The notes under the pieces were generated by a model. That model was not told the DNA's origin. It saw nothing but the letters and a program-made list of their open reading frames with translations, and ran no database searches. Positions 27,113 to 32,335 of a stretch of DNA of 64,000 nt are shown one piece after another. The position numbers and the translations under genes were made by a program. Position 1 is the first letter of the stretch, and the number at the start of each line of letters is the position of its first letter. The stretch comes from Nitratifractor salsuginis DSM 16511 (GTDB lineage: Bacteria; Campylobacterota; Campylobacteria; Campylobacterales; Sulfurovaceae), in NCBI RefSeq assembly GCF_000186245.1, contig NC_014935.1, positions 1,116,001 to 1,180,000 on the forward strand, read 5' to 3'.

Positions 27113-27131
27113 ATGCTCGCTTCGCGCGCAT
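27113..27131. repeat. Hairpin with TTC loop beside heptamer array
   Basis: ATGCTCGC, loop TTC, GCGCGCAT pairs at seven of eight positions. It lies 15 bases after the CAACACT array. Confidence 0.5.
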
Positions 27132-27155
27132 AAACGGATCGCCGTGCGGACCTAC

Positions 27156-27177
27156 AAACGACACGCAGGTGTCGTTT
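27156..27177. terminator. Hairpin directly after fabI
   Basis: AAACGACAC, loop GCAG, GTGTCGTTT: a perfect 9-bp stem two bases beyond the fabI stop on the minus strand. The stem is AT-flanked at its base but no long U-run follows. It may end or stabilise the fabI transcript. Confidence 0.55.
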
Positions 27178-27179
27178 GC

Positions 27180-28007
27180 TCAACGGTCCTCCCCATTCCA
27201 CGCGATATGGGGCTTGCCGTTCTCGTCAAACTCCACCGCCGGCATCCCCATAATATTGAATCCACCGTCGACATAGTGGATTTCACCGGTCACGGCGCTG
27301 GAGAGATCACTGACGAGGTACATTCCGCTGTTACCCACCTCTTCGATGGTGATGTTGCGTTTGAGGGGGGCGTGGGCGGCGTTCCATTTGAGCATAAAGG
27401 AGAAATCCCCGATCCCGGCGGCGGCCAGGGTCTTGATGGGGCCGGCGCTGATGGCGTTGACCCGGATCCCGTCACGGCCCAGGTCTTCGGCCATATACTT
27501 GACGGTCATCTCCAGAGCCGCTTTGGCAACCCCCATCAGGTTGTAGTTGGGGATGTATTTGACTCCGCCGTAATAGGTCAGTGTCAGCACGGCGCTTTTG
27601 TCGCTGAGGATCGGCTTGAGCTCCCGGGTCACTTCGATCAGAGAGTAGACGGAGATATCCATCGCGACGTTGAAGGCCTCTTTGGAGATATCGGTGAAGT
27701 GACCGCTGAGCCCCTCTTTGGGGGCGAAGGCGATGGAGTGGACGATGAAATCGATCTGCCCGAAATCCCGCTCCAGGGATTCCCTCAGCGCTTTGATCTC
27801 TTCGGGTTTGCTCACATCGCAGGGGTAGAGGCGCTCGGCACACCCCAGCTCTTCGGCGATGGGTGCGAGCTTCTTCTCGAAACGTTCATTGAGATAGGTG
27901 ATGGCCAGCTCGGCCCCCTGATCCCGGCACGCTTTGGCGATCCCGTAGGCGATGGACTTTTTGTTGGCGATCCCCAGGACGATCCCCTTTTTTCCCTTCA
28001 TCAGCAT
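27180..28007 (-). CDS. fabI: Enoyl-ACP reductase (FabI)
   Basis: A 275-residue short-chain dehydrogenase-type enzyme that reduces trans-2-enoyl-ACP with NAD(P)H in the last step of fatty acid elongation. GIVLGIANKKSIAYGIAKA is the FabI cofactor-binding start. The catalytic Tyr-x6-Lys is seen in YNLMGVAKAALE. Other family segments are GGVKYIPNYN and RVNAISAGPIKTLAA. I chose ATG 28007 because AAGGAGAG lies five bases upstream. Length is normal. Confidence 0.95.
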   Translation of the reverse strand: MLMKGKKGIVLGIANKKSIAYGIAKACRDQGAELAITYLNERFEKKLAPIAEELGCAERLYPCDVSKPEEIKALRESLERDFGQIDFIVHSIAFAPKEGLSGHFTDISKEAFNVAMDISVYSLIEVTRELKPILSDKSAVLTLTYYGGVKYIPNYNLMGVAKAALEMTVKYMAEDLGRDGIRVNAISAGPIKTLAAAGIGDFSFMLKWNAAHAPLKRNITIEEVGNSGMYLVSDLSSAVTGEIHYVDGGFNIMGMPAVEFDENGKPHIAWNGEDR

Positions 28008-31978: not shown

Positions 31979-32335
31979 TGCTCCGTTTTATAGTATTTGA
32001 TGTAATAGATAGTTATCAACGCAACCGACATCTCACGCCAGACCACGTTTTCACTTGATAGCTCTGGCAGTCGCAAATATGAGAAGCGTAAGCAAAGGAT
32101 AACTGCTTATCCTTTGTAGCTTCGGAACCGAAATGGTCGGAGCGAAGCAAAGCCATAAAGGAGGGTGCCTCTTCGAGGTTGAGTGCTCCTTTGTCGCCAT
32201 CAAGTGAAAACTCCGCGTTATGTGTCAGCGAAGCTACTTGATTTATAATGAATTATAGCGGATATGTCAGGAGAGAGGCGGGAATATCACTTTGTGCAAG
32301 TTTTGCTATGCTCTCGAAAAAAAAGGGAAACAGAT
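31979..32335. other. Noncoding stretch holding a cloverleaf-like element
   Basis: There are 357 bases without a convincing gene, between the divergent xth and methyltransferase genes. Most of it is occupied by the structured element at 32028-32223. To the right is TATAAT-GA-ATTATA near 32244, a palindromic AT block that could hold the promoter of the methyltransferase gene. Confidence 0.6.
32028..32223. ncRNA. Cloverleaf-like inverted-repeat element
   Basis: The outer arms TTTTCACTTGAT (32048-32059) and ATCAAGTGAAAA (32199-32210) are a perfect 12-bp inverted repeat. The stem continues imperfectly outward: ACGC (32035) with GCGT (32215), ACAT (32028) with ATGT (32220). Inside are three hairpins. 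CAAAGGATAA pairs with TTATCCTTTG (32093-32116). GCTTCG pairs with CGAAGC (32119-32148) with inner ACC/GGT. AAAGGAG pairs with CTCCTTT (32157-32192) with inner CCTC/GAGG. It may be a structured RNA, a folded single-strand recombination site or a small non-autonomous mobile element. Only one copy is seen in the window. Confidence 0.55.

Follow-up and report, generated by a model that had tools for sequence, protein, structure and literature searches.

The intergenic element between the xth and methyltransferase genes of the window (the whole stretch of 64,000 nucleotides of Nitratifractor salsuginis DNA analysed here) is best explained, with a probability of roughly 0.75, as a nested, non-autonomous, MITE-like composite of palindromes with a REP-like insert. 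The element is short and without coding capacity (~150–240 bp), its terminal inverted repeats (TIRs) are clear in relatives and in several copies of its own genome and imperfect in the window copy, and it occurs in multiple dispersed copies that are present or absent at orthologous sites. Copy number, size classes, TIRs, the exchange of cargo, covariation and absence from the orthologous site in sister species were each observed directly. An earlier note on this DNA had offered three options, namely a structured RNA, a single-strand recombination site or a small mobile element with terminal repeats. The last of these is the best supported, by the dispersed copies, by the two size classes, by TIRs in relatives, where a 4-bp target duplication is probable, and by the absence of the element from the orthologous site in three sister species. 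For a recombination site we found no positive evidence; inspection by eye did not show the integron attC boxes RYYYAAC / GTTRRRY at its base.

The window element forms a branched fold

The features discussed below are the following.

32020–32237, no strand assigned: whole element including imperfect outer arms, which both folds pair imperfectly; other copies have clear TIRs there
32020–32045 and 32212–32237: outer arms of the window copy, matching in position the TIR shell of other copies
32046–32213, minus: long-type cloverleaf core (161 nt as cores are defined here), with copies in its own genome and in relatives at 82–87% identity
32047–32062, plus: left arm of the main stem, GTTTTCACTTGATAGC; inverted repeat with compensatory changes
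32196–32211, plus: right arm of the main stem, GCCATCAAGTGAAAAC; inverted repeat with compensatory changes
32069–32074, minus: inner helix with tandem G-A mismatch, side 1 (GCGACT), near-invariant in 47 aligned copies and seen in consensus folds
32185–32190, minus: inner helix, side 2 (AGGAGC), inside the near-invariant GGCGACAAAGGAGC, in the same 47 copies and consensus folds
32081–32155, minus: inner REP-like module R1, the arm that separates long from short copies; 97.8 bits with a covariance model whose training set includes this sequence
32093–32116, minus: 10-bp hairpin of R1 with apical loop GCAG; compensatory changes in 8 of 10 pairs
32168–32178, minus: short-type core hairpin CCTC-GAA-GAGG, from alignment rows
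31990–32019, minus: promoter-like site facing xth, just beyond the left outer arm (consensus scan only)
32222–32249, plus: promoter-like site facing the methyltransferase gene, partly within the right outer arm (consensus scan only)
27117–27191, plus: second R1 module of the window; it overlaps the stop of fabI, a gene on the minus strand whose protein ends ..WNGEDR*; 52.2 bits

The element lies between two divergent genes, exodeoxyribonuclease III (xth, TIGR00633) on the left and, on the right, a SAM methyltransferase of TehB-like type, as judged from weak family matches only. The outer inverted repeat described in the earlier note is real: it spans 16 nt at 94% complementarity (32047–32062 / 32196–32211) and closes the branched fold, and weaker, imperfect pairing runs on outward beyond it in the folds of both strands. 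The outer arms of the window copy have diverged and its exact ends are uncertain. The three internal hairpins also fold as claimed, with the core boundary refined to ~32046–32213. These are CAAAGGATAA/TTATCCTTTG at 32093–32116, GCTTCG...CGAAGC around 32118–32147, and, within 32163–32193, a hairpin that includes CCTC-TTC-GAGG (32168–32178), for which the alignment rows of other copies have CCCC/GGGG, CCCGT/ACGGG or CCCAT/ATGGG. In single sequences the GCTTCG/CGAAGC hairpin competes with an alternative pairing, GAAGC/GCTTC, which closes around the 32093–32116 hairpin and is supported by cross-genome covariation. ORFs overlapping the element reach 50 aa at most, which leaves no plausible gene in it, in line with the absence of an open frame noted at the outset.

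Folding, a search for other copies and covariation had been proposed as checks, and all three bore the structure out. On either strand the fold is much more stable than those of dinucleotide shuffles: the plus strand at -78.3 kcal/mol (shuffle mean -63.2; z -3.34) and the minus strand at -83.2 kcal/mol (shuffle mean -62.5; z -4.22), with 0 of 200 shuffles as good in either case. Other copies and compensatory changes are present (see below), and this recurrence with compensatory changes rules out chance, which had already been thought an unlikely origin. The fold is real and is not a one-off.

A long closing stem resembling a1/a2, several inner hairpins and dispersed copies would also suit a retron-type msr-msd RNA gene or another retro-element derivative copied via RNA. 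However, no reverse transcriptase (PF00078) was found in the element's own genome or in five copy-rich members of the genus, by searches that detected the controls; this speaks against a retron or group II intron derivative, and we give this reading next to no credence.

Dispersed copies fall into two size classes

A genome search with the core (32046–32213) recovered ~14 copies dispersed in its own 2.10-Mb chromosome. At least eight relatives, from the same genus and family, carry long copies too, at 82–87% identity, with the best match (87%) in another genus. When both core ends were required, core lengths were 81–82 nt (n = 26) or 159–166 nt (n = 21), with one copy of 120 nt. Long copies differ from short ones by an extra arm at one fixed place, and two long copies of its own genome (L009 and L012), together with L153, carry a different subtype of this arm at the same place.

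Of 48 copies, 37 are outside long ORFs, that is, between them, as judged by a crude mechanical criterion, and insertion would be tolerated because most copies lie between genes. The orthologous xth-methyltransferase neighbourhood is conserved without the element in three sister species (G001, G002 and G007), where the corresponding intervals are occupied by other sequence rather than being clean empty sites. Plasmid and phage collections gave no match, and one short viral contig carries an R1-like pattern.

A shell of terminal inverted repeats holds alternative cargos

In relatives the core is enclosed by the TIRs ATTGAACCCTCTGAA...TTCAGAGnACTCAAT, and the motif ATTGAACCCTCTGAA occurs dozens of times across eight genomes, against no occurrence of a reversed control. 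A four-base NATT repeat stands at both element ends in relatives, and its variable base is identical on the two sides in 15 out of 20 copies, where 8.8 would be expected (P 6e-4). This is the pattern that a 4-bp target duplication would leave, although the duplication is short and the conserved ATT masks part of it. Several copies of the window's own genome have a different TIR, TATTA..CCGGCAA, and no clear target duplication is visible at these.

The same TIR shell also encloses other contents. At six loci (L274, L280, L286, L287, L292 and L301) it holds dimers of CGTC-type REPs in place of the core, with hairpins such as CGTC-ATCCTGAA-CTCGA-TTCAGGAT-CCA, which fits the published description of CGTC REPs: a CGTC tag, an 8–9 bp stem, a 4–5 nt loop and a CCA tail (PMC3733652). 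CGTC dimers within palindromes have been described in H. neapolitanus (PMC3733652). In further shells (L164/L285, L284 and L291) the core is largely deleted.

The outer TIR pair forms a shell that is presumably recognised by a transposase in trans; transposition by a DDE-type enzyme and the order of the nesting events are what we infer. The ends to be matched by such an enzyme would be GAACCCTCTGAA or TATTAnnCCGGCAA. Within the shell a 13–16 bp stem closes the conserved core, and within the core, at one fixed place, some copies carry an extra REP-like R1, which also spreads alone. Arms and cargo are exchangeable: a shell may hold a short core, a long core with R1 (cores with different R1 subtypes exist) or CGTC-type REP dimers. 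Our searches found no transposase for the element, and at the loci inspected in G001 there was neither an autonomous transposon with the same TIR nor a second TIR at transposon distance; the TIR pairs of that genome are MITE copies, CGTC-cargo copies and fragments only.

It is quite improbable that the element is instead of REP/REPIN type and mobilised by RAYT, a Y1 tyrosine transposase. Its hairpin architecture would suit such an origin, as would termini that overlap stop codons in the manner of GTAG REPs (PMC3733652), and RAYT-like genes do exist in the family, but the ones inspected have different flanking hairpins, the R1 module was found at 0 of 50 Y1-transposase loci, and both core and module are without a conserved GTAG or CGTC tag. 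The RAYT-like genes L127, L129, L131, L133 and L134 (in G016, G030 and G034) have their own species-specific REP hairpins, unrelated to the element. As for the two named REP classes, the element does not consist of GTAG-tagged 20–40 bp hairpins flanking a RAYT gene, and core and R1 do not fit the CGTC description, the fitting repeats being separate ones in the same shell.

Compensatory changes and conserved internal loops

Substitutions in both partners that preserve pairing were found in 5 of 16 tested pairs of the short copies (n = 26) and in 16 of 31 pairs of the long copies (n = 21), and in neither class did any of 500 shuffles score as high. In slid controls pairing drops to 22–43%. Of the 13 pairs of the main stem, seven are compensatory in long copies and five in short copies. 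The RNAalifold consensus has a 16-bp outer stem followed by the helix AGGAGC/GCGACT with its tandem G-A mismatch, and it shows near-invariant loop bases, GGCGACAAAGGAGC and GCGACTGCCAGAGC. The R1 module behaves alike, as an alignment of 17 examples with 98% paired cells, from which the covariance model for the searches was built, has compensatory changes in 12 of 18 pairs.

These compensatory changes exceed what a MITE needs and so count against that reading. They would be accounted for if the cloverleaf were primarily a functional structured RNA, for example a small RNA present in many copies or an element for processing mRNA ends, that had been dispersed incidentally, with selection maintaining both its stems and its invariant internal loops (GGCGACAAAGGAGC / GCGACTGCCAGAGC and the tandem G-A mismatches). 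The conservation of unpaired bases and of the apical GCAG loop argues in the same direction, as does the placement of R1 at gene 3' ends in one orientation (see below). Rfam covariance models, however, gave no match at the gathering threshold or at E values up to 5, the presence of the element among species is patchy, and the only promoter-like sites at the window copy flank it and are both directed outward, away from it (consensus scan only). Nor do wobble pairs point clearly to selection on one RNA strand: for the inner module G-U combinations number 19 against 24 A-C over 58 rows, with no clear excess on either strand, and the 13-bp outer stem shows a mild bias only, with 15 G-U against 6 A-C on the minus strand. 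Of the structured RNA first suggested for this site, then, compensatory changes and conserved internal loops were borne out, whereas a known family and clear RNA-strand selection were not, and we regard a primarily RNA-level function as somewhat unlikely.

In bacteria, template switching is an established process by which inverted repeats are corrected towards perfect palindromes. If template switching during DNA replication rewrote one arm of a quasi-palindrome from the other, the covariation would not show RNA selection, an explanation that we consider a realistic possibility while not the expected one. It agrees with the rarity of mismatches and G-U intermediates relative to full Watson-Crick swaps (in alignment A1, 296 Watson-Crick cells, 4 G-U and 4 A-C), yet correction of arms leaves the conserved internal loops and the GCAG loop across families unexplained. 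Since the G-U to A-C comparison is weakly biased and palindrome correction could yield the same covariation, we do not claim RNA selection.

The R1 module often lies at gene ends across an order

Many genomes have related R1 modules that are not enclosed by the outer element. A covariance-model search found R1 in 80 of 200 Campylobacterales genomes; in a draw from the phylum, most of which may belong to this order, all the matches listed fall in the same order. Almost every carrier with a name belongs to Sulfurovum, Campylobacteraceae or other metagenome-assembled genomes of Campylobacterota. One R1-pattern match (L258) is on a contig labelled Caldisericaceae, from a metagenome-assembled genome, and may reflect contamination or transfer.

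For 35 of 52 R1 copies, the end of a sense ORF with 80 or more codons falls in the interval from -3 to +22 relative to the start of the module, 23 of these exactly at +2, while on the opposite side ORFs end in 0 of 52. By NCBIfam, the genes upstream of R1 encode FabI, GroEL (in two families), FabG (in two genera), SerS, ArgS, RNase J, RadA and NadK, and several of these proteins run to the end of the family model or close to it. Among 30 groEL loci that were read separately, the module directly follows a TAA stop in two (G051 and G068), and G082, a relative of G051 in the same genus, has none at groEL. The groEL copies with module of G034 and G153 have a TGA stop, and other groEL genes read have TAA or, once, TAG. 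The placement of R1 at stop codons has a known parallel, since the termini of GTAG REPs often supply stop codons (PMC3733652).

Several individual loci are worth recording. In the window, the last codons and stop of fabI (GAG GAC CGT TGA) belong to the R1 module at 27117–27191. Elsewhere in the same genome, three tandem R1 modules stand directly behind the fabG stop (L227, G000:C1:503500-504700), and G034 has a single R1 at the same fabG end (L208). R1 modules are also found in 16S-23S spacers and beside tRNA genes. At L236 and L237 (G084 and G053) the module is in the 16S-23S rRNA spacer behind tRNA-Ala; each of these genomes has three near-identical matches, which suggests that every rRNA operon carries one. 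At L191 and L052/L235, R1 is downstream of tRNA-Thr and is followed by a duplicated tRNA 3' end, a unit that at L235 is tandemly repeated, like a small integration or duplication product.

R1, a two-stem fold, is seen at groEL, fabG, fabI, grpE, serS, argS, rnj, radA and nadK, and in rRNA and tRNA operons as well. It could be imagined as an uncharacterised, order-wide class of structured mRNA 3'-end element in Campylobacterales that would begin exactly at the stop codon and spread by insertion at native stop codons, with the cloverleaf as its mobile vehicle between genomes; we think this unlikely and offer it tentatively. Alongside the MITE-like composite that we favour for the element as a whole, there may be a role as regulatory RNA, above all for R1.

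Comparison with known systems

The repeat family and its order-conserved structured module were found in neither Rfam nor the literature searched. They provide a case of mosaic nesting of palindromes, in which one shell takes alternative cargos and a module is anchored at stop codons in fixed phase, and they make it testable how such repeats insert without harm to genes and whether they tune the expression of essential operons.

The literature searched for repeats in Nitratifractor or Sulfurovum yielded one relevant paper, a survey of REPs (Di Nocera et al. 2013, PMC3733652). Like the CGTC and GTAG REPs treated there, the repeats described here are palindromic and extragenic, and the published classes include dimers in palindromic shells in some species and GTAG termini that supply stop codons (PMC3733652). 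Core and R1 differ from both classes in being untagged, longer (75–165 nt against 20–40), two-stemmed or branched, and, in the loci examined, not beside RAYT genes. The shell does, however, take repeats matching the CGTC description as an alternative cargo. With REPINs and BIMEs they share composite inverted hairpins that are dispersed and intergenic, but here the TIR shell is longer and no association with RAYT was found. Correia/NEMIS elements of Neisseria, ERIC and RUP are likewise short, non-coding, dispersed and intergenic with TIRs; their sequence, TIR and target differ, the present family has an elaborate branched interior with swappable arms, and no partner IS was found for it. NEMIS, finally, comprise a long and a short class, just as the family of the window element does.
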